Assembly (NCBI GenBank): GCA_026399835.1
Contig: JAPLQE010000083.1
Span: 1 to 64,000 of the forward strand
Reading direction: 5' to 3'
DNA length: 64,000 bases
DNA from: Burkholderiales bacterium
GTDB lineage: Bacteria; Pseudomonadota; Gammaproteobacteria; Burkholderiales; Burkholderiaceae_E
Under the pieces are notes generated by a model. That model had not been told where the DNA came from and did no database searches. It was given only the letters and a program-made list of their open reading frames with translations. Positions 1,126 through 35,022 of the stretch are shown here, one piece after another. The translations under genes were made by a program, and so were the position numbers. Within the stretch, counting starts at the first letter, position 1. Each line of letters begins with the position of its first letter.

Positions 1126-1139
1126 TAACTCTTTGGTTA
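1126..1139. promoter_or_regulatory. Predicted TetR-family operator, site 1 (TAAC-N6-GTTA)
   Basis: The palindrome TAACTCTTTGGTTA lies 41 bases upstream of the oxidoreductase start. The same TAAC-N6-GTTA pattern occurs next to the TetR-family gene at 34332-34997 and before two other operons. Binding by that regulator is inferred. Confidence 0.6.
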
Positions 1140-1210
1140 ATAATTTTCCGTTCCGGGACCCGGATCGTCAACCCTTGCCGCTCTCTTTGGCCACCGATAC
1201 CATCGGCTCA

Positions 1211-1224
1211 TCACCAGATGGTTA
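1211..1224. promoter_or_regulatory. Weak copy of the TetR-family operator, site 2
   Basis: TCACCAGATGGTTA matches the TAAC-N6-GTTA pattern with one mismatch in the left arm. It lies 35 bases before the MetE-like gene, so the divergent intergenic region would have one site near each start. Confidence 0.35.
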
Positions 1225-1258
1225 ACTCGGCCACAGAGCCGCCCCCCGGAGACGCGCC

Positions 1259-2263
1259 ATGCCCCGCATCCAGACCACCGTCGTCGGCTCCTATCCCGTG
1301 CCCGAGTGGCTCGTCGCGCTGCCGTCCGAGCAGGCGCTCGCCGACGCCACCCGCGTCGTCATCGGCATCCAGGAGCAGGCCGGCATCGACCTGGTCTGCG
1401 ACGGCGAGCTCTACCGCTTCGACGTCAACCATCCCGAGACCAACGGGATGATCGAGTACTTCGTGCGTCCGATGGACGGGATCACGCAGCGCTTCTCGTT
1501 CGAGGACCTGATCGCCTACCGGGCGAGCTCCGGCATGAAGTTCCGCACGCGCCCGCCGGGCACGGTGATCGGGCCGATCGGCAGCGGCGCGCTCGACCTG
1601 CCGCTCGCCTGCGCGCGGGCGAAGGCGCTCGCCACGAAGCCGCTGAAGTTCACCGTCACCGGGCCGCACATGCTGGCCAAGACGCTGATCGACCGGCACT
1701 ACGGCAACCTGCCCGACCTCGCCGCCGCGATCGGCGACGCGCTCGCCGAGCAGGTGCGCCACTGCGAGGCCGCGGTGGTGCAGGTCGACGAGGCGAACCT
1801 GCCCGGGCATCCCGAGGAGTGGGAGTGGGCGGCCGCGGCGATCAACCGCGTGCTCGACGCGGTGCCGGGCAAGTCGGCGGTGCACCTGTGCTTCGGCAAC
1901 TACGGCGGGCAGTCGGTGCAGAAGGGCACCTGGGACCGGCTGATGCGCTACCTGAACGCGCTGCACGCCGACCACATCGTGATGGAGGTCGCGCACCGCC
2001 CGCCCGAGGAGCTGGCCGCGTTCCGCGAACTCGAGCCGAGGATCGGCTTCGGCCTGGGCGTGATCGACATCAAGGCCAACGAGGTCGAGACGCCCGAGCA
2101 GGTGGCCCGCGCGATCGAGCGCGCCGAGTCGCTACTGGGCGCGGGCCGCGTGGCCTACATCCATCCCGACTGCGGGTTCTGGATGCTCAAGCGGCCGATC
2201 GCGGACGCCAAGATCCGGGCGATGCCGGCGGGGCGGGACCTGTTCGAGCGGGCGGGGGCGTAA
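1259..2263 (+). CDS. MetE C-terminal-like (cobalamin-independent methionine synthase family) protein
   Basis: This 334-residue protein resembles the stand-alone catalytic half of cobalamin-independent methionine synthase (COG0620). The zinc/thiol-binding set is present: His209 and Cys211 (HLC), Glu243 (VMEV) and Cys305 (HPDC). It lacks the MetE N-terminal half, so it is unlikely to be the housekeeping enzyme. Relatives in catabolic clusters are thought to move methyl groups or act on small thiol or methylated substrates. A GGAG sequence lies upstream of the ATG. It is divergent from an oxidoreductase and preceded by the predicted TetR operators, so a catabolic methyl-transfer role is plausible but inferred. 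Confidence 0.85.
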   Translation: MPRIQTTVVGSYPVPEWLVALPSEQALADATRVVIGIQEQAGIDLVCDGELYRFDVNHPETNGMIEYFVRPMDGITQRFSFEDLIAYRASSGMKFRTRPPGTVIGPIGSGALDLPLACARAKALATKPLKFTVTGPHMLAKTLIDRHYGNLPDLAAAIGDALAEQVRHCEAAVVQVDEANLPGHPEEWEWAAAAINRVLDAVPGKSAVHLCFGNYGGQSVQKGTWDRLMRYLNALHADHIVMEVAHRPPEELAAFRELEPRIGFGLGVIDIKANEVETPEQVARAIERAESLLGAGRVAYIHPDCGFWMLKRPIADAKIRAMPAGRDLFERAGA

Positions 2264-2959
2264 CGGTGAAGCTTCAGTGAGCGCATTGTGAGGTCGATGC
2301 GAGTCACGTTGCCTGCCGTCATGCACATCGATGGCCGTCGAGTCCCGGCATCCGACGGTCAGAGGCTAAGTATCTCTTTACATCGAGTGCGCTGACGCTC
2401 GCATTCCCCATCGAATTCACCGAGCGGCCGCACGACGCGCCGCAGGCGGCGACTGCGCTCGCCCACCGGATCGACTCCGGCAGCGCCTACGACCAATCGC
2501 GCAGGGTTGGGGCGGCCTCGCTGCTGGACCACGTTGAGTCGATCGGCTAGGACTTCCGTTTACTCGACGGCGACGCAGGCCGAGTAGATCATCGCGACCG
2601 TGACACTCTTCGAAATCCTCATGCCCGCCACCAAGAGCGAAGCGTCCGCTCCTAATGCTCTTGAGGTATCGCAAAGGCGAAGAAGAGAGTCGATCCGCTT
2701 GCGATACCAGCGAGAGTTCTGCTTCGCGCTGAAAAGCTTGTCTGACCGCAGAAGAATCTCGCGAGTCTCAAGGAATACATCCCGCGTCGTCGCAGGTGCC
2801 TGACTGCGGGCGGATGGCTTGTTGGACTCCCGCTGACGGTTAAGCGTCAGGCAAATCTCTATGCAACTGCTGGCCATCGGCAGGAGAATGAATGCTTGGA
2901 TGGCCAGCTAGAATCCAGGCGACCGAGTAGACAGACAGCAGTTTGCGAGCGGATCAGCC
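2264..2959. other. Lower-GC intergenic stretch before the restriction-modification genes
   Basis: No confidently recognised gene lies here. Base composition drops compared with both sides. Around 2390-2550 the plus strand reads open with a plausible coding look that ends in SLLDHVESIG and a stop, but no start or family is recognisable, so it may be a gene remnant. One possible minus-strand reading frame is listed separately. The segment probably marks the left edge of an acquired restriction-modification island. Confidence 0.5.
2560..2877 (-). CDS. Hypothetical protein, doubtful
   Basis: This is a 105-residue open frame with an ATG at 2877. It has no recognised domain. The composition is mixed and rich in Arg, Ser and Leu, with one moderately hydrophobic stretch near the C-terminus. 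It lies in the low-GC flank of the restriction-modification genes and points away from them, so it could be a small island gene or chance. A shorter plus-strand frame overlaps it at 2600-2803 and is no more convincing. Confidence 0.25.
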   Translation of the reverse strand: MASSCIEICLTLNRQRESNKPSARSQAPATTRDVFLETREILLRSDKLFSAKQNSRWYRKRIDSLLRLCDTSRALGADASLLVAGMRISKSVTVAMIYSACVAVE

Positions 2960-4162
2960 ATGGCTATAGGCGAGGGGTTCCAGTACCAGCGGTGGAGCGT
3001 GAGCAGGTCGCACAAGGCGCCGTTGCTAGCGTTCGTGACCGACGGACTACGGGCCAGCGGCTGCACGATTCTCCATGCAAGCGACCCTGTTCACGCCCCA
3101 TTCTTCGTCAGCTACGAGACCGCATCGGGCGAGCGAGAAGGAATCCTCGTCTACGCCTTCTTCGCCAACAGCAAGGTGACTCGCAATCGCCCGGCGGACG
3201 AACACCGGTTCCAGATCAAGTACGGCGGCGAGACTAAGGCCGTCCTCACGGTCGAGCAAGATCCAGCCCGGCTGGTTACGACTCTGTTCGTAGGGATCGA
3301 TGTTGAACGAGGAGTCGCCGTGAGCGCCGACCCGGTCTTGTATGACGGGGTACCGATGTTCATCAGCGTGGAGTTCAAGCGCCGTTACGTCGAGGCTGTC
3401 TTCCGCGATGGCTGGCATGCCTGGGAACGTGGCAGCGGCCGCGATGATGGGCAAGGTGACGACGATCACGATGACGGAGGGGGGCGTTTCGGTGTCGAAA
3501 CGCTTGTAGGCGTGCGAAGGGATCGCTTCCTGGACCTCGTCCGGTTTGAGCGCGCGGCACGCGGCGTCGCGCCCGGTCACCGCCAACTGCGTGCGGAGCG
3601 AATTCTTGGGGCTGGGCCGGCCGCCAGTCAGCCCAATATCGTGCACGGCTTGATGAGGGAGCTGGGCCTTGGCGAAGCAGAGCTACTGGACATGATTCAA
3701 GGGAACCCACGCCTGAAGATGGCAGTCCGGGGAGGTGTGGCTGAACTGCACCTTGAGCGATTCATGCAGGACGTCCCCAACGTCACGGACTGCCGCTTGG
3801 TCAACGCTGAGGGTCGCCCCGACTTGGAGGTCCGGTACAAGCGCCGAGGACCCGTACTCATCGAGTGCAAAAACGTCCTCCGCGTACCGCTTGCTGATGG
3901 CAGCCCGAGGGTGGACTTCCAGCGGACCAGGGCGTCCAAGTCCGATCCGTGTTCACGGTACTATCGACCGGAAGAATTCTCGATCCTGGCGGCCTGTCTA
4001 CACGCGGTGACCGAGCGCTGGGAGTTCCGGTTCGTGCCCACCGCAGTCCTTCCCGGACACCAGAAGTGCATCGGCCGAATCAGCAGCAACATTCGAGTCG
4101 TTGAGCCCCAGTGGAAGGCGGACGCCGCCTTGGTACTCGAAGAGGTAACCCGAACCCCATGA
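2960..4162 (+). CDS. Type II restriction endonuclease, PD-(D/E)XK type
   Basis: This 400-residue protein ends on the start codon of a C5-cytosine methyltransferase (ATGA overlap), the classic arrangement of a type II restriction-modification pair. A PD-(D/E)XK nuclease core is visible: Asp288 in RPDLEV and Glu302-Cys-Lys304 in LIECKN. The rest shows no common domain, as expected for restriction enzymes. A Gly/Asp-rich stretch at about residues 154-172 could be a linker; the frame stays open and conserved-looking on both sides, so I do not call a frameshift. The recognition sequence cannot be predicted. The name rests on context plus the nuclease motif. Confidence 0.75.
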   Translation: MAIGEGFQYQRWSVSRSHKAPLLAFVTDGLRASGCTILHASDPVHAPFFVSYETASGEREGILVYAFFANSKVTRNRPADEHRFQIKYGGETKAVLTVEQDPARLVTTLFVGIDVERGVAVSADPVLYDGVPMFISVEFKRRYVEAVFRDGWHAWERGSGRDDGQGDDDHDDGGGRFGVETLVGVRRDRFLDLVRFERAARGVAPGHRQLRAERILGAGPAASQPNIVHGLMRELGLGEAELLDMIQGNPRLKMAVRGGVAELHLERFMQDVPNVTDCRLVNAEGRPDLEVRYKRRGPVLIECKNVLRVPLADGSPRVDFQRTRASKSDPCSRYYRPEEFSILAACLHAVTERWEFRFVPTAVLPGHQKCIGRISSNIRVVEPQWKADAALVLEEVTRTP

Positions 4163-5460
4163 GCGACGCTCTTGCAGCAATCAGCCTCTTCACCGGGGTG
4201 GGCGGGCTTGACTATGGATTCGAGGCGGCTGGATTCGATACTCGAGCCGCCTTGGAGATCGACGCCACCTGCTGCACGTCGCTGCGAGCGAGCCGCCAGT
4301 GGCCTGTGATCCAGGCCGACTTGATGGAAACGCCCACCGAGACTTTGCTCAAGGCTGGAGGGCTCAAGTCTGGCGAAGTCGATATTCTCATCGGTGGCCC
4401 CCCGTGCCAGCCGTTCTCGAAGTCTGGCTGGTGGGCGAAGGGCGACAGTCTTCGTCTCGGCGACTCGCGCGCGAACACGCTGACGGGCTATCTGCGGGTC
4501 GTACGTGAGGCACGTCCTAGAGCGTTCCTGCTCGAAAATGTCGAGGGCCTCAAATTCGAGGGTAAGGACGAGGGGATCAAGCTCCTCTTGTCCGCACTCG
4601 AGGAGATCAATCGCAGCGCCCGCGTCAAGTACCGACCGACCGTCATCACGCTCAACGCGGCCGACTTCGGAGTGCCCCAGACCCGCACCCGTGTGTTCGT
4701 AATCGCGTCTCGGGATGGCCGCGCATTCATTCCTCCGACGCCAACTCACCAAGACTCGAGTCAACCACAGCTATTGCCCGGCGAACCCTGGATGACTGCT
4801 TGGGACGCGCTCGGCGGACTGCCGCCGCCCAAGGAGGACGATCTCAGTTTGTCGGGAAAGTGGGCTGACTTGTTGCCCAGCATTCCAGAGGGGCAGAACT
4901 ACCTTTGGCACACCGACAGAATGGATGGGGTACCCCTGTTCGGCTGGCGGCGTCGGTACTGGAACTTCCTCCTAAAGCTGGCAAAGAACCGACCTGCATG
5001 GACGATTCAGGCGCAGCCAGGACCGGCGACTGGGCCTTTTCACTGGCACAACCGGCGGCTCAGCGGCGCAGAGTTGATGGCGCTGCAGACGTTTCCGAAG
5101 AACATCACCATAACGGGCGGGCGCAACGACGTGCAGCGACAGATCGGCAACGCTGTCCCGAGCCTTCTCGCCGAAGTGTTAGGGCGCGAGATCCGTCAGC
5201 AGTTTTTTGACCATCGGGCACCTCGGACGACGCCGACTTTGCTCCCCGAGCGACGCGACGACCGTCCGCTCGCTGAGCGGATCAGGAAGGTGCCCAAGAA
5301 GTACTTGTCTCTGATTGGAGAGCACACTGCGCACCCTGGCACCGGTCGGGGAAATCTGTACGGATCGAAGGGTGATGGTCTGACTGGGGTCGATGAAATC
5401 GCAGATGAACTGCCACTTTCTGCACAAGAGTCCACGCCGGAACGCGACTGCGTTGCTTGA
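4159..5460 (+). CDS. DNA (cytosine-5-)-methyltransferase
   Basis: This 433-residue enzyme would methylate C5 of cytosine in the site recognised by the upstream restriction enzyme. All key motifs are visible: motif I (SLFTGVGGLDYGF), motif IV with catalytic Cys83 (GGPPCQPFS), motif VI (ENVEG), motif VIII (QTRTRVF), motif IX (RLSGAELMALQTFP) and motif X (QIGNAVP). The ATG at 4159 was preferred over an in-frame upstream start at 4111 because the motif I region begins immediately after it and it overlaps the nuclease stop by ATGA. A tail of roughly 85 residues follows motif X. Base composition is less GC-rich than in the neighbours, suggesting acquisition with the nuclease. Confidence 0.95.
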   Translation: MSDALAAISLFTGVGGLDYGFEAAGFDTRAALEIDATCCTSLRASRQWPVIQADLMETPTETLLKAGGLKSGEVDILIGGPPCQPFSKSGWWAKGDSLRLGDSRANTLTGYLRVVREARPRAFLLENVEGLKFEGKDEGIKLLLSALEEINRSARVKYRPTVITLNAADFGVPQTRTRVFVIASRDGRAFIPPTPTHQDSSQPQLLPGEPWMTAWDALGGLPPPKEDDLSLSGKWADLLPSIPEGQNYLWHTDRMDGVPLFGWRRRYWNFLLKLAKNRPAWTIQAQPGPATGPFHWHNRRLSGAELMALQTFPKNITITGGRNDVQRQIGNAVPSLLAEVLGREIRQQFFDHRAPRTTPTLLPERRDDRPLAERIRKVPKKYLSLIGEHTAHPGTGRGNLYGSKGDGLTGVDEIADELPLSAQESTPERDCVA

Positions 5461-5597
5461 CGGTATCGGTGGCAGCACGTCGCCACCACATGCCAACAGA
5501 AGGCGGGCCGCCGTACACCTGGCCACCTCGTTCATTGAGAACGCCGGAGGCCGAGAAGTGCCTCAGCTGGCCTAGATTGTCTTCAAGACTAGCGTGC

Positions 5598-6050
5598 CTA
5601 GGCGGCGCCGAAGAGCGCGTGCACCGCCCGCCGGAGCCCCTCGTAGCCGCCGCAGCGGCAGATCTGCCCCGACAGCAGCTCGAGCACCGCGTCGGGGCCC
5701 GGGCGCGGCACGGTGCGCAGCGCGCCGGCGATCGCCACCGTCATGCCGGCGCTGCAGTAGCCGCACTGGATGGCGCCGGCGTCGGCCAGCGCGCGCAGGA
5801 TCGCACCGCCCTCGTCGCCGAGCCCGTCGACGGTGGTGACCGCGCTGCCGTCGATGCGTGCGGCGAGCACCAGGCACGAGGGCACCGGCGCGCCATCGAG
5901 CAGCACCAGGCAGGCGCCGCAGCGGCCGATGCCGCAGCCGGGCTTGGGGCCGGTGGCTTCGAGCGGGCCGCGCAGGGCCTCGAGCAGGCGCGTGTCGGCC
6001 GGCGCGTCGAACGCGACCTCGCGGCCGTCGAGCAGGAAGCGGCGCGTCAT
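5598..6050 (-). CDS. Molybdenum hydroxylase small subunit, [2Fe-2S] (XdhA/CoxS type)
   Basis: This 150-residue protein is the iron-sulfur subunit of a xanthine-dehydrogenase-family hydroxylase and passes electrons from the molybdenum centre towards FAD. The plant-type [2Fe-2S] cysteines are Cys39, Cys44, Cys47 and Cys59, and the second cluster uses Cys96, Cys99, Cys131 and Cys133 (QCGYC and ICRCGGY). Its ATG overlaps the stop of the large-subunit gene by four bases (6047-6050). It is the last gene of the long minus-strand operon. Length and motif order match the family. Confidence 0.95.
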   Translation of the reverse strand: MTRRFLLDGREVAFDAPADTRLLEALRGPLEATGPKPGCGIGRCGACLVLLDGAPVPSCLVLAARIDGSAVTTVDGLGDEGGAILRALADAGAIQCGYCSAGMTVAIAGALRTVPRPGPDAVLELLSGQICRCGGYEGLRRAVHALFGAA

Positions 6051-8263
6051 GCGTCGCCCCCGTCGCGGGCCGCGCGGGCGTCCAGCGCATCGCGCAGCCA
6101 CGCCGGGGACACCGGCAGCCGGTCGGGCATCGCGCCCGCCGCATCGGCCAGCGCGTTGGCGATCGCGGGCGCGATCGCGTTGAGCGCGCTCTCGCCGATG
6201 CCGCGGGGCAGCGCATCGTCGTCGGCGATCGGCGCGTCGATCGCACGCAGCGCGACGCGCGGCGCGTCGGCCAGCGTCGGCACGAGGTAGCCGTCGAGGT
6301 TCGTCGCGCGAAAGCGCCCGGCTTCGGCGGGCAGGTCCTCGAGCACCACGAAGCCCGCGGCCATCGGCACGCTGCCCTCGATCTGCGACAGGAAGCCGGC
6401 GGGCGACACCACCGGCCCCACGCTCGGCACGACGGTCACGCGATCGACGCGCACCCGACCGGTCCACCGGTCGACCGACACCTCGGCGAACGCACCGCAG
6501 GCGCCGAAGATCGCATGCGCCGGCCCGTGCGCGCTGAAGGACTCGGGCATCGCGACCTCCGCCTCGACCCAGAGTTCGCCGCTGGCGCCGGGCGCCGCGC
6601 ACGCGGCGGCGAGCTTCGGCACGAGCGCGGCGACCAGCTTCGCGAGGATGTGCGTGCCGCGCGACGCCGAGGTCGGACCGGCCGAGGGCGTGCGCTCGGT
6701 GAGCCCGACGCTCGTGCGCAGCGGCGCGCCTGCGAGCTCGGGCTGCGCGTCGAGCGCCGCGCGCAGCAGGTCGCGGGCGGCGCCCGACAGGCCCTGCCCC
6801 ATTTCCGAGAGCCCGACGCGCAGCTCGACCGTGCCGTCGGCGAGCCGGCCGAGCCGCCCGCCCGCGGCGTTCGGGCCGCCGACCGCGAAGCCCTCGCTCT
6901 TGGTCACCAGCGCGCAGCCGCGGCCAAGGGCCCAGCGGGCCGGCTCGGCGCGGGCCGCGGGCGAGGACTCGGTCCGTGCCGCCGGCAAGGGATCGGACCG
7001 TGCCGCGGGCGAGGACTCGGCGCGAATCGCCTCGAGCTGCACCATCACCGCGTGCAGGTCGGGCAGCGGCGCGATCGCCTGGCCGAGCGGCCCCGGGTCG
7101 TCGCGGCGCAGCAGATTGCGTGTGCGAAAGGCCATCGGGTCGATCCCCGCGCGACGTGCCAGCGCGTCGATCTGCAGCTCGAGCGCGGTCGAGGTCTGCA
7201 GCGCGCCGAAGCCGCGGAACGCGCCCGAGATGCCGTTGTTCGTGTAGGCGAGCCGGCCCTCGACCCGCAGCGCCTCCCAGCGGTACGCGCCGGGCGCATG
7301 CTCGTGCGCGGTGTCGAGCACCTCGGGCCCGTGCGAGGCGTAGGCGCCGGTGTCGAGCAGCAGCGACACGTCGTGGGCGAGCAGCCGGCCCTCGGCGTCG
7401 CAGCCGGTGCGCATGCGCACGACGAAGGGATGGCGCTTCATCCCGGCGGCCATCGACTCGGCGCGCGACCAGGCAAGCCGCACCGGGCGCCCGCAGCGCA
7501 CCGCGAGCAGCGCCGCGATCGCCTGCCCGTGCATGTCGTCCTTGCCGCCGTAGCTGCCGCCGAGCGGCGAGCCGGTCACCTCGATGCGCTCGACCGGCCA
7601 GCCGAGCAGCGCGGCCAGGTCCTGGCGGATCGCATGCGGCCCCTGACAGGGCGCGAGCACGTGCAGCGTGCCGTCCTCGCGCGGCACCGCGAGCGCCGAC
7701 TCGAGCTCGAGGTAGGCATGCACCTGTCGCGGCGTGGACACCACCGACTCCACGACGTGGGCCGCGCGCGCGAACGCCGCCTCGAGGTCGCCGCGCTCGA
7801 AGCGGGTGGCGTGCAGCAGGTTGCCGCCCTCGTGCAGCGCGGGCGCGTCCGCGGCGAGCGCGCGCTCGGGGTCGTCGAGCGTGGGCAGCGGCGCCCAGCG
7901 GACCTCGATCGCGGCGAGCGCGTCGCGTGCGATCTGCAGCGTCTCGGCGGCGACCGCGGCCACCGGCTCGCCGACATGGCGGACCCGCCCGACCGCGAGG
8001 GCCGGCCGGTCGCGCACCTGGATGCCCAGCCGGTGCGCGGTCGGCAGGTCCGCCCCCGAGATCACCGCATGCACCCCGGGCAGCCTGCGGGCCGCGTCGA
8101 GCGACACCGACACCAGGCGCGCATGCGGATGCGGGCCGCGCAGCACCGCCGCGTGCAGCAGGCCGGGGGCGCTCGCGTCGCCGAGGAAGCGGCGGGGCGG
8201 CAGCGCGACGGGCGCGCGCAGGGCGGCCGCCTCGCGCAGCGCCCGGGTGTCGCGCACGCTCAT
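6047..8263 (-). CDS. Molybdenum hydroxylase large subunit, molybdopterin-binding (XdhB/CoxL type)
   Basis: This 738-residue catalytic subunit of the xanthine-dehydrogenase family would bind the molybdenum cofactor and hydroxylate an N-heterocycle, purine or aldehyde. Recognisable stretches include LGGSYGGKDD, the AFRGFGALQT cofactor-binding region and the C-terminal GIGESALNAIAPAIANAL. It begins at 8263, overlapping the FAD-subunit stop by ATGA. It contains an in-frame 24-base triplication at 6951-7022 that encodes a Ser/Pro/Ala-rich insert. Substrate specificity cannot be read directly. The co-transcribed importer, hydrolase and 2-oxoglutarate oxygenase suggest catabolism of an imported heterocycle (inferred). 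Confidence 0.93.
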   Translation of the reverse strand: MSVRDTRALREAAALRAPVALPPRRFLGDASAPGLLHAAVLRGPHPHARLVSVSLDAARRLPGVHAVISGADLPTAHRLGIQVRDRPALAVGRVRHVGEPVAAVAAETLQIARDALAAIEVRWAPLPTLDDPERALAADAPALHEGGNLLHATRFERGDLEAAFARAAHVVESVVSTPRQVHAYLELESALAVPREDGTLHVLAPCQGPHAIRQDLAALLGWPVERIEVTGSPLGGSYGGKDDMHGQAIAALLAVRCGRPVRLAWSRAESMAAGMKRHPFVVRMRTGCDAEGRLLAHDVSLLLDTGAYASHGPEVLDTAHEHAPGAYRWEALRVEGRLAYTNNGISGAFRGFGALQTSTALELQIDALARRAGIDPMAFRTRNLLRRDDPGPLGQAIAPLPDLHAVMVQLEAIRAESSPAARSDPLPAARTESSPAARAEPARWALGRGCALVTKSEGFAVGGPNAAGGRLGRLADGTVELRVGLSEMGQGLSGAARDLLRAALDAQPELAGAPLRTSVGLTERTPSAGPTSASRGTHILAKLVAALVPKLAAACAAPGASGELWVEAEVAMPESFSAHGPAHAIFGACGAFAEVSVDRWTGRVRVDRVTVVPSVGPVVSPAGFLSQIEGSVPMAAGFVVLEDLPAEAGRFRATNLDGYLVPTLADAPRVALRAIDAPIADDDALPRGIGESALNAIAPAIANALADAAGAMPDRLPVSPAWLRDALDARAARDGGDA
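6951..7022. repeat. Tandem 24-bp repeat, three units, in frame
   Basis: There are three adjacent 24-base units (6951-6974, 6975-6998, 6999-7022) of the form CGTGCCGCGGGCGAGGACTC plus four bases. The first and third are nearly identical and the middle one has drifted. They add a repeated Ser-Pro/Leu-Pro-Ala-Ala-Arg segment to the large hydroxylase subunit without breaking the frame. Confidence 0.8.
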
Positions 8264-9180
8264 CGCGACGCCCCGCCGGCGAACGCGGCGGCGTGCCCGG
8301 CGATCATCCGCGCTGCCACCGCGACCCGCTCGGCGCCGCTCGCGAGCGTATCGTCGCAGGCCTGCATCCCGGCGACGACCGCGGCCCGCAGCGCGAGCTG
8401 CGATGCGGCCTGCGATGCCGCCTGCGATGCGGCCTGCGATGCGGCCTGCGATGCGGCCTGCGATGCCGCCTGCGACACGCCGTGCGGAGCCCCCTGCGCA
8501 GCGGCCGTCGCACCGGGTCCGAGCAGCGCCTCGACACCGGCCAGACGGTGCGCGGGCGTCGGACCACCGCCGACGGCCACGTGCACGCCCTGCCCCGAAT
8601 CGACCATCGCGACCGTGACGAGCGTCGGGCTGAACGCATGCCGCAGGCCGACCTTCTCGATCACCATGTGGCGCCCGGTCAGGGGCACCCGGACCTCGAA
8701 GAGCAGGTCGAGCCCGGGCATCGCGGCCGGCGCGATCGCGGGCCCGTCGCCCGCCGAGGCGAAACGGTAGCGGGCGCCCAGCGCCAGCATCGCCGGCACC
8801 AGGTCGCCCGAAGGCCAGCACAGGTTGCCGCCGAGCGTGCCCAGGCGACGCACCGGCGCCGAGCCGATCGCACCGATCAGCACGGCCAGGGCGGGCAGCG
8901 CGTCGCGCACGCGGGCGTCGAGGCGGATCGACTCGAGCGTGGCGAACGCCGACATCACCAGCGCGCCGGCCTCGAGCCGGACGGGCGTGCCGCGCGCGGC
9001 CGCGGTCAGCGCGCGCAGGTCGATCAGCGCCGTCGGCGCGCGCCCCTCGGGCCAGCCGAGCTGCGCGGCGGTGGCACCCGCGAGCGGCTGCGCGTGCGGA
9101 TGGGCGGCGCGCAGCGCACAGGCCTCGGCGGCCGTGCGCGGCAGGTGGACCTCGGGGCCCGCGGCAGGCTCGCTCGTCAT
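8260..9180 (-). CDS. Molybdenum hydroxylase FAD-binding subunit (XdhC/CoxM type)
   Basis: This 306-residue subunit belongs to the CO-dehydrogenase flavoprotein family and would carry FAD and transfer electrons from the iron-sulfur subunit to the acceptor. The N-terminal PLAGATAAQLG and the central RRLGTLGGNLCWPSGD stretch correspond to the family's FAD-contact regions. A run of six Ser-Gln-Ala-Ala units is inserted before the C-terminal CO_deh_flav_C-like part, encoded by a perfect-phase 12-base repeat. The start at 9180 overlaps the upstream permease stop by ATGA, and its stop overlaps the large-subunit start. Confidence 0.93.
   Translation of the reverse strand: MTSEPAAGPEVHLPRTAAEACALRAAHPHAQPLAGATAAQLGWPEGRAPTALIDLRALTAAARGTPVRLEAGALVMSAFATLESIRLDARVRDALPALAVLIGAIGSAPVRRLGTLGGNLCWPSGDLVPAMLALGARYRFASAGDGPAIAPAAMPGLDLLFEVRVPLTGRHMVIEKVGLRHAFSPTLVTVAMVDSGQGVHVAVGGGPTPAHRLAGVEALLGPGATAAAQGAPHGVSQAASQAASQAASQAASQAASQAASQLALRAAVVAGMQACDDTLASGAERVAVAARMIAGHAAAFAGGASR
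8401..8472. repeat. Tandem 12-bp repeat, six units, in frame
   Basis: The unit is CGATGCGGCCTG (plus strand), repeated six times with a single G/C variation in units two and six; degraded copies flank it. It encodes (Ser-Gln-Ala-Ala)6 in the FAD subunit. Copy number could vary by slippage without a frameshift because the unit is a multiple of three. Confidence 0.9.
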
Positions 9181-10079
9181 TCGGCCGGCAGGCTCCACGG
9201 CACCAGCCGCCGCTGCGCGATCGCGACGACGCGGAACAGCAGCAGACTGATCGCCACCAGCACGATCAGCGCGGCGAAGGCCTGGTGGATCTTGAAGAAC
9301 TGCGTGGAGAACAGGATCAGGAAGCCGAGCCCGCGCTCGGCGGCGACGAACTCGCCGACCACCGCGCCGATCACCGCGAGCGTCGTCGCGATCTTCAGCG
9401 CGCTGAACACATAGGGCATCGCGAAGGGCAGCCGCACGTGCAGCATCTGGCGCGATCGGGTCGCGCGCAGCGAGCGCGACAGCTCGACCAGCTCGGGCGG
9501 CGTCGCATGCAGCCCGGTGACCGTCGACACGACGATCGGAAAGAAGGTGATGAGGAAGGTGATCATCACGCGCGGCAGGTCGTCCGCGCCGAGCGTCACC
9601 ACGATGATCGGCGCGATCGCGACGATCGGCGTCGACTGCACGACGATCAGCATCGGCAGCAGCGTGCGGGTGAGCAGCCGCGAGTTGGCGAGCATCATCG
9701 CCAGCGGCACCGACACCACGATCGACAGCAGATAGCCCAACAGTGCCACGCGCAGCGTGGCCCACGCGTGGCCGATCCAGGACACGAGGCCGATCTCGGC
9801 GAAGCCGCGCGCGATCGCGCTCGGCGCGGGCAGCACGAAGGGCGGGATCGGCACCAGCCGGCAGGCGAGCTCCCAGGCGAGGATCACGCCGACGAAGGCC
9901 AGCACCGGCGCGCCGCGGTCGGCCAGGCGCAGCAGCGCGGCGAACGACCCGGCGGGCCCGGGGGCCGGCGCCGACGCGACCGGCGGCTCGGTGGCCGGTG
10001 CCACCACGGTCACGCCCCACGGAACGGGCGGCGCTTCGGCCCCGACACGCCCCTGCACCGGCAGCACCACCGCGCTCAT
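9177..10079 (-). CDS. ABC transporter permease, NitT/TauT (SsuC) type
   Basis: This is a 300-residue inner-membrane permease of the nitrate/sulfonate/taurine-type ABC importers. A Pro/Ala-rich cytoplasmic N-terminus of about 55 residues precedes roughly six hydrophobic segments. The cytoplasmic EAA-like loop is visible around ELVELSRSLRATRSRQMLHVRLPFAMPY. The gene overlaps the FAD-subunit start by ATGA and follows its cognate ATPase gene, also with an ATGA overlap. It should form the channel for the binding protein at 10927-11919. Confidence 0.9.
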   Translation of the reverse strand: MSAVVLPVQGRVGAEAPPVPWGVTVVAPATEPPVASAPAPGPAGSFAALLRLADRGAPVLAFVGVILAWELACRLVPIPPFVLPAPSAIARGFAEIGLVSWIGHAWATLRVALLGYLLSIVVSVPLAMMLANSRLLTRTLLPMLIVVQSTPIVAIAPIIVVTLGADDLPRVMITFLITFFPIVVSTVTGLHATPPELVELSRSLRATRSRQMLHVRLPFAMPYVFSALKIATTLAVIGAVVGEFVAAERGLGFLILFSTQFFKIHQAFAALIVLVAISLLLFRVVAIAQRRLVPWSLPAE

Positions 10080-11919: not shown

Positions 11920-11986
11920 CGGTGGGATCCTCGGGAAAGGGGGCGGGCGCGCGGCGCGCACCGCACGGGCACGGGGAGCGTGCAAT

Positions 11987-22419: not shown

Positions 22420-22442
22420 GCTGCCGGACCCATCGGATAATT

Positions 22443-25119: not shown

Positions 25120-26559
25120 ATGCACGCCCCCCGCTTCACCGTCGTCTCGATCGAGGCCTTCGAGCGCGACGTGCGCCTGCGCATGCCGTTTCGCTTCGGC
25201 GTGGTGACACTCACCGCGGCGCCGCAGGCCTTCGTGCGCGCGACCATCCGCCTGGCCGACGGCACCGAGGCGAGCGGCGCCGCGGCCGAGCTGCTCGCGC
25301 CCAAGTGGTTCGACAAGGATCCGGCGCTGTCGAACGAGGACAACTTCGACCAGCTTCGGCGCGCCGTGCACCTGGCACGCATCGCGTACGCGGACGGCGA
25401 GGCGCGCAGCGCGGTCGGCCACTTCGCCGCGCACCATGCCGCGCATGCCGCGCGCTGCGCCGCGCAGGGCCTGAACGGACTGGTGGCGGGCTTCGGGCCG
25501 GCGCTGGTGGACCGCGCGCTGCTCGACGCGCTGTGCCGCGCGCTCGGCGTGCCGTTCTCCACCGCGGTCCGCGAGGACCGCATCGGGCTGGCCGCCCATG
25601 CGGCGGCGCTGGCCCCGGAGCTCGAGGGCTTCGACGTCGGCGCGTTCCTCGCCGCGCTGCGGCCCGCCGCGTCGATCGCCGCACGCCACACCGTGGGACT
25701 GGTCGACCGCATCGTCGCCTCCGATGCCGGCGCGCCGGTGGGCGACGGGCTGCCCGAGACGCTCGAGGAGGTGGTGGCGCGCTACGGCCACCGCTGGTTC
25801 AAGCTCAAGGTCGGCGGCGATGTCGCGGCCGACGTCGAGCGGCTGTCGGCGATCGCCTCGGTGCTCGACCGCATCCCCGAGCCCTACCGGGCCTCGCTCG
25901 ACGGCAACGAACAGTACGACGACGTCGACGGCGTGGTGGCGCTGTGGCGGGCGATGCAGGCCGAGCCGCGGCTGCGCCGCCTGGTCGACAGCGTGGTGTT
26001 CATCGAGCAGCCGATCCGGCGCTCGAGTGCGCTGTCGCGCGACATCGGCGCGCTCGCCGCCGAGCGGCCGGTCATCGTCGACGAGTCCGACGACACGCTC
26101 GACGCCTTCGCCCGGGCGCGTGCGCTCGGCTACGTCGGCGTGTCCTCGAAGACCTGCAAGGGCCTGTACAAGTCGATGCTCAACGCGGCCCGCTGCGCAC
26201 GCTGGAACGCCGAGGCCGGGTCGGCGCGCTGCTTCATGAGCGCCGAGGACCTGACCATCCAGGCGGGGCTCGCGCTGCAGCAGGACCTGGCGCTGGTGTC
26301 GCTGCTCGGGATCACCCACGTCGAGCGCAACGGCCACCACTATGTCGACGGCATGGCCGCGCTGCCCGCCGCCGAGCAGCAGGCCTTCCTCGACGCGCAT
26401 CCCGACCTCTATGAGCGCAGCCACGGCGCGGTGCGCGTGCGGATCCGCGACGGCAGCCTCGCGATCGGCTCGCTCGATGCGCCGGGCTTCGCGAGCGGCG
26501 CGATGCCGGCGTGGGATGCGATGCGCGCGCTGCCCGACGGCTGGCACCAGAAGCCGTGA
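25120..26559 (+). CDS. Enolase-superfamily (mandelate racemase-like) protein
   Basis: This 479-residue protein resembles enolase-superfamily enzymes, which abstract a proton next to a carboxylate with Mg2+ help, giving dehydration or racemisation of sugar acids and related compounds. The KxK-type base is in RWFKLKVGGD, likely metal ligands are Asp in SLDGNEQ, Glu in FIEQPI and Asp/Glu in IVDESDD, and the second-base region is SSKTCKGLYKS. It is longer than typical members. It lies two bases after the ATPase stop, completing the operon of lyase, importer and dehydratase-like enzyme. Confidence 0.85.
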   Translation: MHAPRFTVVSIEAFERDVRLRMPFRFGVVTLTAAPQAFVRATIRLADGTEASGAAAELLAPKWFDKDPALSNEDNFDQLRRAVHLARIAYADGEARSAVGHFAAHHAAHAARCAAQGLNGLVAGFGPALVDRALLDALCRALGVPFSTAVREDRIGLAAHAAALAPELEGFDVGAFLAALRPAASIAARHTVGLVDRIVASDAGAPVGDGLPETLEEVVARYGHRWFKLKVGGDVAADVERLSAIASVLDRIPEPYRASLDGNEQYDDVDGVVALWRAMQAEPRLRRLVDSVVFIEQPIRRSSALSRDIGALAAERPVIVDESDDTLDAFARARALGYVGVSSKTCKGLYKSMLNAARCARWNAEAGSARCFMSAEDLTIQAGLALQQDLALVSLLGITHVERNGHHYVDGMAALPAAEQQAFLDAHPDLYERSHGAVRVRIRDGSLAIGSLDAPGFASGAMPAWDAMRALPDGWHQKP

Positions 26560-30223: not shown

Positions 30224-31087
30224 TCAGTGCCCGCCGGCCTCGATCAGCCCGCGCAGGTAGCCCGCGGCGAACGCCGCGCAGCCCGGCCCGTCGGGCCGGT
30301 AGTCGAAGGGCTCGACCGCGATCCAGCCGCGGTGGCCGGCGCGCTCGAGCGCGGCGAGGATCGGTGCGAAGGCATCGCCGCCCTGCCCCGGCGCACGCCG
30401 GTTGCGGTCGTTGAGCTGCACGTGGGCCAGCAGCCCCGTCGGCCACCAGCGCTCGATCAGCGCGGGCAGCGGCTCGGACTCGGCGAGCGCGCCCGACGAG
30501 GTGTCGAGCATCGTGCGCAGCGCCGGCACGGCCGCCGCGCGCACGATGGCCACCGCCTCGGCGACGGTGTTGACGATCGGCGTCTGGTCGCGCGACAGCG
30601 GCTCGATGCAGTAGACGACGCCCGCCTCGCCCGCGGCCTCGCCCGCGCGCGCCCAGCAGTCGGCGGCGCGCGCGAGCGCATCGGCCTGCGACTGGCCGGG
30701 CGCGGGCGCGCGCTGCGCGGGCGAGCCGTGGACGAGGTAGTCGCCGCCGAGCTCGGCGCACAGCGCGACCAGCCGCCGCATGACCTCGACCGTGCGCGTG
30801 CGCAGCGCGTCGTCGGGTGTGGTGATCGACAGCCCCTTGGGCGCGACCAGCAGCCAGTGCAGCCCGCAGATCGCGAGGCCGTGGTCGGCGGCGATGCGCC
30901 GCAGCTCGGCGGCGCGCGCATCGTCGATCGACAGCGGATCGTCGGCGAGCGTGAACGGCGCGACCTCGAGCGCGGTATAGCCGAGTTCGGCCGCGAGCGC
31001 GCACTGCGCGGCGAAGGGCATCGGCGCGAGCACCTCGTTGCACAGCGCCAGGCGCGCGCCCATCGGCGCGTGGGGAAGGTCGTTCAT
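30224..31087 (-). CDS. Sugar phosphate isomerase/epimerase-like TIM-barrel protein
   Basis: This 287-residue protein is of the xylose-isomerase-like TIM-barrel family (AP endonuclease 2 superfamily). Typical metal-ligand regions are visible: Glu in CIEPLSR, Asp in TMLDTSSG, His in AHVQLND and Glu in IAVEPFDYRP. It would isomerise or epimerise a keto-sugar or a related compound. It lies 19 bases after the tctA stop on the same strand, so it is probably the last gene of the TetR-controlled Tct operon. Confidence 0.87.
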   Translation of the reverse strand: MNDLPHAPMGARLALCNEVLAPMPFAAQCALAAELGYTALEVAPFTLADDPLSIDDARAAELRRIAADHGLAICGLHWLLVAPKGLSITTPDDALRTRTVEVMRRLVALCAELGGDYLVHGSPAQRAPAPGQSQADALARAADCWARAGEAAGEAGVVYCIEPLSRDQTPIVNTVAEAVAIVRAAAVPALRTMLDTSSGALAESEPLPALIERWWPTGLLAHVQLNDRNRRAPGQGGDAFAPILAALERAGHRGWIAVEPFDYRPDGPGCAAFAAGYLRGLIEAGGH

Positions 31088-31106: not shown

Positions 31107-32609
31107 TCAGGCCGCTGCAGCGCGGGCGCGTCGCGCGATGAGGCGACGCACGGCCGGCACCTGCGACAGCAGCATCGCCAGCACCACCAGCGCCAGCAGC
31201 GCGCTGATCGGCCGCGTGAAGAAGGGCAGCAGGCTGCCGTCGGAGAGCACCAGGCCGCGGCGCAGCGTCTTGTCGACGATGTCGCCCAGCACCAGCCCGA
31301 GCACGAAGGGCGCGACCGGATAGTCGCGGCGCCTGAGGAAGAAGCAGATCACGCCGATCACGCCCATCACGTAGACGTCGAACAGCCGCGAGGCGATCGA
31401 GTACGAGCCGAGCACGCACAGCACGAAGACGATCGGCATGATCACCTCGCGCGGCACGCGCAGCACCCACAGGATCGGCCGCACCATCACGAGACCGAAC
31501 AGCAGGATCGCCAGCGTCGCGATCAGCGTGATCGCGACCACGTCGAAGACGAACTGCGGCTGCGTCGTCATCAGCATCGGGCCCGGCTGCACGCCGTGGA
31601 TGATCATCGCGGCCATCAGCACCGCCGCCGGGGCCGAGCCGGGCACGCCGAGGGCGAGCGCGGGGATCATCGCGCCAGGCACCGCGGCGTTGTCGCCGGT
31701 CTCCGCCGCCATCAGGCCCTCGACCGAGCCCTTGCCGAACAGCTCGCGCTCCTTGCTCGCGCGGCGCGCCGCGGCGTACGAGCTCCAGGCCGCCATGTCC
31801 TCGCCGACGCCCGGCAGGATGCCGACGAACACGCCGATCACGCCCGAGCGCAGCACCGTGCGCCAGTACCTCAGCACGTCGCGGATGCGCGGCAGCACCG
31901 AGTCGAGGGTCTCGACCACGGGGCGCGCGCGCGGCTCGGCCATCACCACCAGCACCTCGGCGAAGCCGAAGGCGCCGACCAGCGCCGGAATCAGGTTGAT
32001 GCCGCCGGTCAGCTCGCCCCAGCCGAAGGTGAAGCGCTCGTAGGCGTGCACCGGGTCCAGGCCGATGCCCGCGACGAACAGGCCGAGCAGGCCCATCAGC
32101 CAGCCCTTGACCGGGTCGGAGCCGGTGAGCGTCCCCGACATCAGCACGCCGAGCATGCCGAGCCAGAAGAACTCGAAGGCGCCGAACTGCAGCGCGAACT
32201 CGGCCAGCATCGGCGTGAAGGCCGCCAGGCACAGCACGCCGAACAGCGAGCCCGCCACCGAGCCGGTGGTGGCGATGCCCATCGCCCGCCCGGCCTTGCC
32301 CTGGCGCGCGAGCGCGTTGCCGTCGAGGCAGGCGGCGGCGTTGGCGGCCGTGCCCGGGATGTTCAGCAGGATCGAGGTGCGGCTGCCGCCGTAGATCGCG
32401 CCGACGTACACGCAGACCAGCACGAGGATCGCCTCGGTCGGCTGCATGCGCACGGTGAGCGTGGTGAACAGCGCGATGCCGAGCGTCGCCGACAGGCCGG
32501 GCAGCAGCCCGATCACGATGCCGGCGAGGGTCGCGCCCAGCGCGTAGAGGATCTGCATCGGGCCGGCCAGCTTCGCGAGCGAGCCGGCCAGCATCAGGAG
32601 GCCATCCAT
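31107..32609 (-). CDS. tctA: Tripartite tricarboxylate transporter large permease TctA
   Basis: This 500-residue protein with about 11-12 membrane segments is the large permease of a TTT-family importer. The family signature is visible as GLLPGLSATLGIALF near the start and again as VGILPGVGEDMAAW in the second half, with GGSRTSILLNIPGTAANAA between them. The gene starts three bases after the small-permease stop. The cargo is probably a carboxylate; which one is not evident. Confidence 0.95.
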   Translation of the reverse strand: MDGLLMLAGSLAKLAGPMQILYALGATLAGIVIGLLPGLSATLGIALFTTLTVRMQPTEAILVLVCVYVGAIYGGSRTSILLNIPGTAANAAACLDGNALARQGKAGRAMGIATTGSVAGSLFGVLCLAAFTPMLAEFALQFGAFEFFWLGMLGVLMSGTLTGSDPVKGWLMGLLGLFVAGIGLDPVHAYERFTFGWGELTGGINLIPALVGAFGFAEVLVVMAEPRARPVVETLDSVLPRIRDVLRYWRTVLRSGVIGVFVGILPGVGEDMAAWSSYAAARRASKERELFGKGSVEGLMAAETGDNAAVPGAMIPALALGVPGSAPAAVLMAAMIIHGVQPGPMLMTTQPQFVFDVVAITLIATLAILLFGLVMVRPILWVLRVPREVIMPIVFVLCVLGSYSIASRLFDVYVMGVIGVICFFLRRRDYPVAPFVLGLVLGDIVDKTLRRGLVLSDGSLLPFFTRPISALLALVVLAMLLSQVPAVRRLIARRARAAAA

Positions 32610-32612: not shown

Positions 32613-33131
32613 TCAGGGCAGCCGCACGAGGAACAGGTCCTGGAAGAGGTGGGCGATGGTGAAGCAGGCCCCGAGCGCGATCGCGGCGGCGCCCGCGAGA
32701 CCCCGCGCAACGGTGCCCGCGGCCCGCCATTCGGGCAGGCGCAGCATCGCGATCCAGGCGAACACCAGCGCCGACGCGGTGGCGACGAAGGGCAGGCCGC
32801 GCCCGAGCAGCCCGAACACGAAGACCGCGCAGAGCACGAGGACCGCGCCGATGCGCAGCGCAACGGCGCGCGGCGAGGGCGTGTCGGGGTCGTCGGGCAC
32901 CGCCGGTCCGGCGGCCGCGCCGGACTCGGGCGCCGCCGCGGCAGCCGCCGCGCCGCCCCGCTCGCGCCACGCCAGCACCGCACCGAACACCGCGATCAGC
33001 ACCCCGAGCAGCCCGGGCACCAGGCCCGGCGCCGACCACGGCTCGATGTTCATCTGCGCGAGCCGGTCCATCCGGAACGCGCCGATCGCGATCGCCACGC
33101 CGAGCACGATCCAGCCGAGGGCGACCGTCAT
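32613..33131 (-). CDS. tctB: Tripartite tricarboxylate transporter small subunit TctB
   Basis: This 172-residue membrane protein has four hydrophobic segments, including ALGWIVLGVAIAIGAF at the N-terminus, matching TctB size and topology. It sits between tctC and tctA in the canonical order. An Ala-rich loop (residues 60-75) separates segments two and three. Confidence 0.9.
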   Translation of the reverse strand: MTVALGWIVLGVAIAIGAFRMDRLAQMNIEPWSAPGLVPGLLGVLIAVFGAVLAWRERGGAAAAAAAPESGAAAGPAVPDDPDTPSPRAVALRIGAVLVLCAVFVFGLLGRGLPFVATASALVFAWIAMLRLPEWRAAGTVARGLAGAAAIALGACFTIAHLFQDLFLVRLP

Positions 33132-33156: not shown

Positions 33157-34161
33157 TCAGCGCCGGATGCCGATCGACTCGGGCGTGACCTTCGCCATGC
33201 CGGCGTCCTGCAGCAGGAAGGCGTCGGACACCACCGTCGGCCAGACCGCGTCGTATGCGGCCTTGCCGGTCAGGGGCGTGAACAGCGCGCCGCGCTGCGT
33301 CGCGTACGTCTTGAGCTTGTCGGAGGTGGCGATGCGCTCGGCCCAGAGCTTCTCGACCGTCGCCACCACCTCGGGCGGCACGCCCTTGGGGATGAAGATG
33401 CCGAAGCCGGTGGTGACCTTCGGGAAGTCGCGCACGAAATCGGTGATCGGCGGGATCGTGCCGAAGCCCTCGATGGTGAGCGGCGTGTCGGCCACCACCG
33501 CGAGCGGGCGCAGCCGCTTGGCCTTGAGCATCTCGGCCATCTCGACCGCGAGCTGCGTGGTGACCTCGGCCTCGCCCGCGACCGTGGCGATCACCGCCGG
33601 GTTGCCGCCGTCGTAGGTCACGTGCCGGTACTTCGCGCCGGTCGCGCGGGCGATCGTCTCCATCGCGAAATGGCCCGACGAGCTGTTGCCGGCGGTGGCC
33701 ACGGGGACTGGCTTGGCCTTCATCGCATCGATCAGCTGCGGCAGCGTCTGGTAGGGCGTCGACGGGTTCACCGCGACGATCGACACGTTGGTCACCGACA
33801 GGAACAGGTGGAAGTCGTCGACCTTGCTGTTGAGCATGCCGAGCAGCGGGTAGGTGCCGAGCTGCTTGGCCGCGCCGGCCGTCCAGGTGTAGCCGTCCTT
33901 GGGCGCGTCCATCGCGCTCTTGGTGCCGATCGATCCGGCGCCGCCCGGCTGGTTGACCACCACGATCTTCTGGCCGAGCGCCGGCTCGAGCTCGGCCGCG
34001 GCCAGGCGGGTGACCTGGTCGGTGGCGCCGCCCGCGGCCCACGGCACGATGATCGTGATCGGCTTGGTCGGCTTCCACTGCGCCTGGGCGGCGAGCGGGA
34101 CGGACAGCGCGAGCGCTGCGGCGAAGGGCGCGATCAGCGCCAGCCTGCGGGACGGGTGCAT
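33157..34161 (-). CDS. tctC: Tripartite tricarboxylate transporter receptor, Bug/TctC family
   Basis: This 334-residue periplasmic solute receptor has a signal peptide (hydrophobic IAPFAAALALSVPLAAQA) and the family hallmarks KPITIIVPWAAGGATDQVTR at the mature N-terminus and VVVNQPGGAGSIG soon after. It delivers a small carboxylate to TctAB. It is the first gene of the operon, and a predicted TetR operator lies about 50 bases upstream. Confidence 0.95.
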   Translation of the reverse strand: MHPSRRLALIAPFAAALALSVPLAAQAQWKPTKPITIIVPWAAGGATDQVTRLAAAELEPALGQKIVVVNQPGGAGSIGTKSAMDAPKDGYTWTAGAAKQLGTYPLLGMLNSKVDDFHLFLSVTNVSIVAVNPSTPYQTLPQLIDAMKAKPVPVATAGNSSSGHFAMETIARATGAKYRHVTYDGGNPAVIATVAGEAEVTTQLAVEMAEMLKAKRLRPLAVVADTPLTIEGFGTIPPITDFVRDFPKVTTGFGIFIPKGVPPEVVATVEKLWAERIATSDKLKTYATQRGALFTPLTGKAAYDAVWPTVVSDAFLLQDAGMAKVTPESIGIRR

Positions 34162-34213
34162 GAGGGTCTCCTGTGCGAGTCCGGCCGCGTCGGGGCGGCG
34201 CCGTGATCGGTGG

Positions 34214-34227
34214 TAACTCGTTGGTTA
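34214..34227. promoter_or_regulatory. Predicted TetR-family operator, site 4
   Basis: TAACTCGTTGGTTA fits TAAC-N6-GTTA and lies 52 bases before the tctC start. The surrounding bases (GG before, AT after) also match site 1. It lies between tctC and the end of the regulator gene. Confidence 0.6.
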
Positions 34228-34331
34228 ATTGTAGGCAGACAAGCCGGCCGGCCGCAACCCTGCAGCGACGCCGGCTCGCCTGTACCTGATCGGCGACCGG
34301 CCCGCCCGCGCGGCCCCGCGACGCCCCGCGC

Positions 34332-34997
34332 TCAGTTGCGGATCAGGTAGCCCAGGACCAGGTCGGTCATGTGCCCGAGCCGCTCGGCCTGCTCGCGCGG
34401 CGCGAGCAGCTCGCGGCCGAAGATGGTCGACAGCGTGTAGCGGTTCGACAGGTAGAAGTACGACAGCGAGGCGATGGAGATGTAGAGCTGCACCGGGTCC
34501 ACGCCCGCCCGGAACACGCCCGAGCGGCGTCCGCGCTCGAGCAGGTCGTCGATCATCGCCACGAACGGCGAGTGCATCGCGCGGATCTCGTGGCTGCGCT
34601 TCAGGTGCTCGGCGCGATGCAGGTTCTCGCTGTTGAGCAGGCGCAGGAACTCCGGATGCTCGAGGTAGTAGTTCCAGGTGAAGGCCACCAGGCTGCGGAT
34701 GCCCTCGACCGGATCCGTCTCCGACAGGTTCAGCGCCTGCTCCGCATCGCGGATGTCGCGGTACGACTGCTCCAGCACCGCGAGGAACAGGTCCTCCTTG
34801 TTGCCGAAGTAGTAGTACAGCATCCGCTTGTTGATGTCGGCCTTCTCGGCGATTCGGTCGACGCGCGCACCGCCCAGCCCGTGCTGCGAGAACTCGTCGG
34901 TGGCGGCCCGCAGGATCGCGGCGCGCGTGGCGCTCGGGTCGCGCGTCTGCGGGACCGCGGACTTCGCGCGGGGACGGGGGGCAGCCTTGGCGTGCAT
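34332..34997 (-). CDS. TetR-family transcriptional regulator
   Basis: This 221-residue regulator has an N-terminal helix-turn-helix (about residues 25-70: AILRAATDEFSQHG ... NKRMLYYYFGNKEDLF) typical of TetR repressors, and a C-terminal ligand/dimer domain similar to TetR_C proteins with the LYISIASLSYFYLSN stretch. It lies downstream of the tctC control region, on the same strand. Its own start is preceded by a perfect TAAC-N6-GTTA palindrome, the expected pattern for autorepression. The same palindrome occurs at three other control regions, so it is the likely master of that set (inferred). Confidence 0.93.
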   Translation of the reverse strand: MHAKAAPRPRAKSAVPQTRDPSATRAAILRAATDEFSQHGLGGARVDRIAEKADINKRMLYYYFGNKEDLFLAVLEQSYRDIRDAEQALNLSETDPVEGIRSLVAFTWNYYLEHPEFLRLLNSENLHRAEHLKRSHEIRAMHSPFVAMIDDLLERGRRSGVFRAGVDPVQLYISIASLSYFYLSNRYTLSTIFGRELLAPREQAERLGHMTDLVLGYLIRN

Positions 34998-35008
34998 GCC
35001 GCCTATGG

Positions 35009-35022
35009 TAACGAAGCGGTTA
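35009..35022. promoter_or_regulatory. Predicted TetR-family operator, site 5 (autoregulatory)
   Basis: TAACGAAGCGGTTA lies only 11 bases upstream of the TetR-family start and is extended by GG on the left and ACC on the right (GGTAAC...GTTAACC). Binding there would block the gene's own expression. Confidence 0.65.

Follow-up and report, generated by a model that had tools for sequence, protein, structure and literature searches.

A single palindromic operator probably links a TetR-family regulator to dispersed catabolic and uptake genes in a Burkholderiales genome

A 64,000-nucleotide stretch of a Burkholderiales genome (C19:1-64000 of genome G000, which comprises 4,954,742 bases in 93 contigs; this whole stretch is referred to as the window) carries a TAAC-N6-GTTA palindrome in front of a TetR-family regulator gene and of several separate units of catabolic and uptake genes. 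The first-pass annotation had described four exact copies and a variant at 1211; all are found at those positions, and the 64 kb contain no further match with zero or one mismatch. The sites, termed operators here, and the genes around them are listed below (ranks refer to the operator matrix described later).

1-1085, minus strand: Gfo/Idh/MocA oxidoreductase (Pfam/NCBIfam), start at 1085, cut by the window start
1126-1139: operator 1 (TAACTCTTTGGTTA), exact, MocA promoter, matrix rank 1
1211-1224: operator 2 (TCACCAGATGGTTA), one-mismatch variant, MetE promoter, matrix rank 4
1259-2263, plus strand: MetE-like zinc enzyme, 334 amino acids, single Meth_synt_2 domain
21307-22317, minus strand: NMT1-type ATP-binding cassette (ABC) substrate-binding protein (Pfam/NCBIfam)
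22443-22456: operator 3 (TAACCGGATGGTTA), exact, promoter of the DapA-like/ABC/enolase unit and of the divergent binding-protein gene, matrix rank 2
22493-23569, plus strand: DapA-like lyase, 358 amino acids, conserved lysine K179 in AIKIAPF
23580-24347, plus strand: ABC permease
24344-25117, plus strand: ABC ATPase
25120-26559, plus strand: enolase-superfamily enzyme, 479 amino acids, KxK and a downstream lysine conserved
30224-31087, minus strand: xylose-isomerase-like TIM-barrel protein
31107-32609, minus strand: TctA of a tripartite tricarboxylate transporter (TTT)
32613-33131, minus strand: TctB
33157-34161, minus strand: TctC, binding protein
34214-34227: operator 4 (TAACTCGTTGGTTA), exact, tctC promoter, matrix rank 3
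34332-34997, minus strand: TetR-family regulator, 221 amino acids, passing TetR_N (56.9 bits, cut-off 24), TetR_C_29 162.6 bits
35009-35022: operator 5 (TAACGAAGCGGTTA), exact, about 12 bp before the TetR start codon, matrix rank 6

By chance, 0.55 sites with zero or one mismatch would be expected in the window (100 dinucleotide shuffles, largest count 3), and 60 first-order Markov simulations of it yielded no exact copy. A scan of the whole genome, as the first-pass annotation had suggested, returned six exact copies, against two for a control pattern obtained by reading the motif backwards. Four of the six are in the window; a fifth lies at C68:92004, about 100 bp before the DctP gene of a tripartite ATP-independent periplasmic (TRAP) importer that probably belongs to the regulon, and the sixth, on contig C71 (TAACGTTTATGTTA), has no regulon homologue within the 3 kb examined. 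The genome-wide scan for sites with one mismatch was uninformative, because 39 were found against 84 for the control, that is, no enrichment. Only conservation makes the variant at 1211 credible: in an alignment of eight MocA/MetE intergenic regions, that of the window among them, the sites at 1126 and 1211 are both kept in every sequence, and TCACC-N4-GGTTA and near forms, comparable with operator 2, are found upstream of the regulator gene in Variovorax. The exact motif at the operator-5 distance from the TetR start recurs at three other loci (L066, L067 and L076). The control pattern itself, ATTG-N6-CAAT, occurs 20 to 23 times in each of five congeneric genomes (G001, G002, G003, G006 and G009) and one to six times in the congeners that carry the regulator (G000, G005, G008 and G011), which base composition may explain.

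Presence of the palindrome was set against presence of the regulator in 12 congeneric genomes, the window's included. Four of them carry an orthologue that is at least 91% identical (for G008, across residues 1-153), and these genomes, G000, G005, G008 and G011, contain 6, 4, 4 and 3 exact copies, with 5, 4, 4 and 3 located at regulon promoters. Thus, 16 of 17 copies are at regulon promoters; the two upstream of dctP, one in G000 and one in G008, owe this assignment solely to the motif. The eight congeners without the regulator have 1, 0, 1, 0, 0, 1, 0 and 0 exact copies, a total of three, and the one inspected (in G001) has no regulon gene nearby; the motif is nearly absent where the regulator is missing. 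All four TAACC-N5-GTTA copies in G024, a genome of another genus, are at regulon promoters, and there the tctCBA operator is about 0.77 Mb away from the other units.

Inspection of the promoters showed that operator 1 lies 3 bp downstream of a promoter-like pair, TTGACG-17-GAAAAT, on the minus strand (1171-1143, promoter scan). Operator 3 is preceded by TTGACG (22415-22420) and GATAAT (22436-22441) at a 15-bp spacing, and TACAAT (34233-34228, minus strand) abuts operator 4; both were read by eye and neither was reported by the scan. Because operators 1, 3 and 4 are 0-3 bp downstream of -10-like hexamers (two of the three read by eye), they would suit a blocking repressor. In an alignment of the region upstream of the DapA-like gene, TTGAC is kept in nine of ten sequences and the operator arms TAAC and GTTAC in all ten.

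Relatives of the regulator were collected with a profile of nine orthologues, and the best 80 of 465 confirmed relatives were analysed with up to 10 kb on each side. Upstream of the regulator in Variovorax, Pseudacidovorax and Xenophilus we found TCACCAATTGGTTA, TAACCATATAGTGA and similar forms in one register. A symmetric 18-bp matrix was trained on 55 regulator-upstream regions, all from outside the window's genus. Of the 67 loci L079-L145, 12 were not used for training, eight that have the exact motif and four (L082, L092, L136 and L141) without a clear upstream site. The consensus in the relatives is ATTCACCAATTGGTGAAT and the window form is TAACC-N4-GGTTA-like. Applied to the window, this matrix ranked the five sites 1, 2, 3, 4 and 6 among approximately 64,000 positions. 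Over all 80 loci, matches scoring at least 11 numbered 60 at the regulator and 98 elsewhere, and 90 of the 98 lie no more than 300 bp upstream of regulon-family genes, zones that make up 9.9% of the bases. In the 25 non-training loci, 32 matches lie elsewhere than at the regulator, and 31 of these stand before genes that share at least 40% identity with those of the window.

Matrix sites were also present in more distant clusters. Azospirillum lipoferum (L148) has one strong site (23.3) before a run of ABC, enolase-type, MocA and DUF993 genes, the pSymB cluster of Sinorhizobium meliloti (L177) has two (18.9 and 17.4) together with one of 12.4 before another ABC gene, and Pseudoroseomonas (L176) has one (12.5) before MocA; the Chelatococcus (L175) and Rhizobium lentis (L174) loci gave no score above 6.4. 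When ten relative genomes were searched with the MetE protein alone, it was found in four of them, at five loci all lying outside those previously examined, and four of the five carry a match of 12 to 26 just upstream, two as a double site like that of the window. Plasmids of Paracoccus (L147) and Ensifer (L149) encode regulators that share 56-59% identity with that of the window. Similar palindromes (top scores 11-19) are found there, but the adjoining genes are different ones, in Paracoccus sugar ABC, aldehyde dehydrogenase and DapA-family genes. Because these palindromes adjoin other genes, the operator type may be common to several regulons.

The closest relatives with named records are Burkholderiales metagenome-assembled genomes (MAGs), and in the loci inspected the regulator sits amid the same gene families in shuffled orders, with DUF993 homologues in 60 of the 80. 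Variovorax sp. CF079 (L144) has a consecutive run of TetR, TctC, MocA, DUF993, epimerase, DapA-like, TctCBA, isomerase-like and enolase-type genes, and L145 has the same run (by tblastn). MocA and DUF993 are recurrent neighbours in both beta- and alphaproteobacteria, where enolase-type or isomerase-like genes often accompany them. Among 150 genomes of the order (the window's own included), the regulator is present at 63% identity or more in six, and these six have DUF993 in every case (14 of 150 overall) and the enolase-type protein in five (6 of 150 overall). Since relatives have the same genes close together, the dispersed units appear to form one regulon and probably one pathway, as the first-pass annotation had proposed; its assignment of the palindrome to this TetR-family protein is likewise supported by comparative genomics, as predicted binding. 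In a record titled as a Bordetella parapertussis MAG (L080), a name that may be a mislabel, the regulon is represented by its binding-protein, DapA-like, permease and isomerase-like genes.

Several observations weigh against this interpretation. The matrix seed was given by hand and palindrome-shaped, and the training loci were hand-chosen. In the 55 training loci, 59 of the 66 matches away from the TetR gene precede the same families, but 55 of those 59 are below 40% identity, mostly TctC. Operator 5, which belongs to the TetR gene itself, scores 4.1 and falls below a non-regulon match at 38018 (7.4, rank 5). A match of at least 11 at the regulator is found in 54 of the 55 training loci, which is circular, and in 5 of the 25 others, while the exact motif occurs there in 8 of the 80 loci. 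The bare motif discriminates less well outside the genus: 7 of 11 loci examined, part of a longer list, have no regulon homologue, the remaining four being the G024 tctC site, one TctC relative (30%) and two ABC ATPase relatives (32-34%). In addition, the promoter-like pair of the substrate-binding protein gene (22401-22372) is about 40 bp from operator 3, and a remote MetE locus (L196) lacks an operator match. From the split of matrix matches by training, control of the units is therefore well supported and autoregulation less so, the latter appearing to be the less widespread of the two.

The units described by the first-pass annotation stand as gene groups, with amendments: the oxidoreductase gene is truncated by the window start, the enolase-type gene spans 25120-26559, and the list was incomplete. 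To it are added the epimerase and GNAT genes at 13952-15899, DUF993, a second isomerase-like gene and, probably, the TRAP importer. Three further genes of the window are considered here.

13952-14998, plus strand: NAD-dependent epimerase/dehydratase, contiguous with MetE in G005 (L178), probably part of the ancestral MetE operon
14985-15899, plus strand: GNAT-family protein, probably likewise part of the ancestral MetE operon
20060-21244, minus strand: DUF2855 protein, on the same strand behind the binding protein, adjacent also in G005, G008 and G011, tentative member

DUF993 and the second isomerase-like gene are on a 5.1-kb contig of the same genome (C83), which also carries a MocA C-terminus and whose end overlaps bases 1-566 of the window at 97.9% identity. 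Because the overlap is not identical, adjacency of C83 and the window is likely rather than proven; the MocA gene of the window probably continues on C83, and MocA and DUF993 are contiguous in G005 and G008. G005 has the MetE, epimerase and GNAT genes directly next to one another; in the window, the epimerase and GNAT genes are found about 11.7 kb downstream of MetE (gap 2264-13951), which suggests that they are probably former partners in the MetE operon. The gap contains an MTaX1 and C5 cytosine methylase pair followed by a xanthine-dehydrogenase-type set (Fer2, MoCoBD, FAD_binding_5), as well as another NMT1-type ABC importer, an alpha/beta hydrolase and a 2OG-Fe(II) oxygenase; xanthine-dehydrogenase-type genes abut MetE in G008. 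Behind the NMT1 binding protein, and on the same strand, are a GPAT-like acyltransferase gene and the DUF2855 gene (17332-21244, minus strand), and both are also found in G005, G011 and G008 (GPAT partial in G008). These two genes may share the transcript of the binding-protein gene.

Residues that would suit catalysis are conserved in three of the enzymes. The muconate-lactonizing subgroup of the enolase superfamily is defined by a KxK motif, an opposite lysine and acidic metal ligands. The enolase-type protein passes Pfam MR_MLE_C (48.9 bits, cut-off 29.4), and K228, K230, D261, E296, D321/E322, K344 and K347 are invariant in 21 sequences, their roles being assigned by eye; a longer reading frame of the gene and the G024 homologue gave no Pfam match. 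The DapA-like protein scores 22.1 bits for DHDPS, equal to the printed cut-off, and its K179 is invariant in 12 sequences. In the MetE-like protein the zinc motif HXCXnC is present, with H209, C211 and C305 invariant in nine sequences, and the protein falls under the cut-off of all ten NCBIfam methionine synthase models matched (best 145.3 against 406 bits). The best NCBIfam match of MocA, queried without its last residues, is levoglucosan dehydrogenase (NF052479), at 68.9 bits against a cut-off of 650. Comparison of DUF993 with the DapA-like profile gave an hhalign probability of 0.6%, from shallow alignments.

The first-pass annotation had favoured a carboxylic and possibly methylated substrate. 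The methylated part is not supported, because 6 of the 10 relative genomes searched lack the MetE-like gene (E ≤ 1e-60) and all six have the regulator, MocA, DUF993 and the enolase-type gene; on this distribution MetE is an optional part of the regulon. The carboxylic part is partly supported: the importers here are of the TTT, TRAP and NMT1-type ABC kinds, but a sugar ABC transporter flanks the pSymB cluster of Sinorhizobium meliloti Ak57. The alphaproteobacterial core genes are neighboured by a sugar ABC transporter and further MocA-type genes and elsewhere by an aldose epimerase and a GMC oxidoreductase, and the enolase-type gene alone by a glycosyl hydrolase, an L-arabinonate dehydratase and a 5-deoxy-glucuronate isomerase. 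Because of these neighbours a sugar-acid or cyclitol-like substrate is suggested, and the substrate is most likely a sugar acid or cyclitol derivative that is not specifically methylated.

Taken together, it is quite likely that the TetR-family protein represses the dispersed catabolic and uptake units, and probably itself, through one operator, the substrate most likely being of the sugar-acid or cyclitol class. We infer binding, repression, induction and the order of reactions as follows. The regulator (34332-34997) would bind the 14-18 bp operator and repress the units, probably including its own gene, by blocking RNA polymerase, and would be released by a pathway intermediate or by the substrate itself. 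Import would proceed through up to three importers, the NMT1-type ABC system, TctCBA and the TRAP system encoded elsewhere in the genome. The Gfo/Idh/MocA enzyme would then oxidise a hydroxyl, the isomerase-like TIM barrels would eliminate, hydrate or epimerise, the enolase-type enzyme would remove a proton next to a carboxylate, and cleavage of a keto acid would fall to the DapA-like and DUF993 proteins.

It could be argued that the palindrome is bound by another regulator and that the neighbouring TetR gene is merely one of its targets. A candidate exists in the same genome, a TetR paralogue 49% identical to the regulator (C31:25604-26185, locus L062), and both the Paracoccus and Ensifer regulators near similar sites with other genes and the scarcity of strong matches at the regulator's own gene outside the training set would fit such an arrangement. 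However, the C31 paralogue was set aside as the true binder since no matrix site above 5.2 lies around it, and G010, which has only a paralogue-like gene (50%), contains no copy of the motif; we consider another binder improbable. That the repeats are a chance or non-regulatory palindrome family is scarcely credible: the deficit of one-mismatch copies relative to the control would agree with it, whereas the recovery of the sites by the matrix, their conservation at orthologous promoters, the dependence on the regulator and the simulations without an exact copy all argue against it.

Some TetR-family proteins are activators, and activation of the units would agree with the position of operator 3 upstream of the promoter-like pair of the substrate-binding protein gene. 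The placement of operators 1, 3 and 4 just downstream of -10-like hexamers and of operator 5 close to a start codon speaks for repression instead, making activation a poor candidate. A common regulator might alternatively serve separate pathways for compounds that are met together, for example in plant exudates, and the exchangeable parts, with importers and MetE differing between lineages, would be consistent with this. The recurrent pairing of MocA and DUF993 across two proteobacterial classes and the consecutive gene run in the Variovorax loci L144 and L145 point the other way, towards one pathway, and leave the separate-pathway explanation possible but rather unlikely.

Among known systems, RutR is a TetR-family regulator of pyrimidine catabolism that binds a palindrome of about 16 bp, according to the part of the source consulted (PMC10891134). 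RutR (TIGR03613) is the best NCBIfam match of the regulator, but the score of 81.1 bits is far under the cut-off of 368, and a pyrimidine pathway was set aside for this reason; the effector domain, TetR_C_29, is a further difference. No rut-type genes are among the annotated units, where no search by rut name was made. The RutR consensus, which we take to be TTGACCANNTGGTCAA, a string not found in the literature search, has the same register as TTnACC-N4-GGTnAA. Closest in chemistry among the described systems found, as we read it, is levoglucosan degradation by LgdA, LgdB1, LgdB2 and LgdC, in which a dehydrogenase and a Gfo/Idh/MocA-family reductase act with two "sugar phosphate isomerases" that perform beta-elimination and hydration (PMC7676230, in the passages seen). 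In comparison, the regulon adds enolase-type, DapA-like and DUF993 proteins and the TTT, TRAP and NMT1-type importers. The core-MetE methionine synthase, as characterised in the portion consulted (PMC7005905), is a single-domain protein of about 340 amino acids with the zinc motif HXCXnC; the MetE-like protein shares the single domain and the motif but is encoded in a catabolic regulon beside MocA and scores under the NCBIfam cut-offs.

TetR-family catabolic regulons of Proteobacteria (RutR, PsrA and FadP) have been reconstructed by comparative genomics, and this operator and gene set are absent from the passages of that study that were compared (PMC5343134; RegPrecise was not queried). A search of open-licence literature found no description of this regulon or pathway and nothing on DUF993, a weak negative given the open-licence scope; what it returned for the gene set was judged unrelated from the listings and the opening of each abstract. 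A local TetR regulon is a known kind of system, of which this one would be a new case. We tentatively propose, at somewhat less than even odds, a new proteobacterial pathway that starts with MocA-type oxidation of a sugar-acid or cyclitol-like compound and continues with enolase-type and DUF993-type steps. In this proposal DUF993 would be a new lyase family, the MetE-like protein would be a zinc-dependent alkyl transferase on a side branch of substrates, and importers would be swapped between lineages while regulator, operator and enzyme core remain constant.

For genes whose annotation goes no further than fold or family (DUF993, "mandelate racemase", "dihydrodipicolinate synthase family"), the analysis supplies an operator, a regulator and a defined set of enzymes. 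Much of this set is present in named Variovorax and Sinorhizobium strains, so the substrate could be identified by growth screens with an operator reporter.

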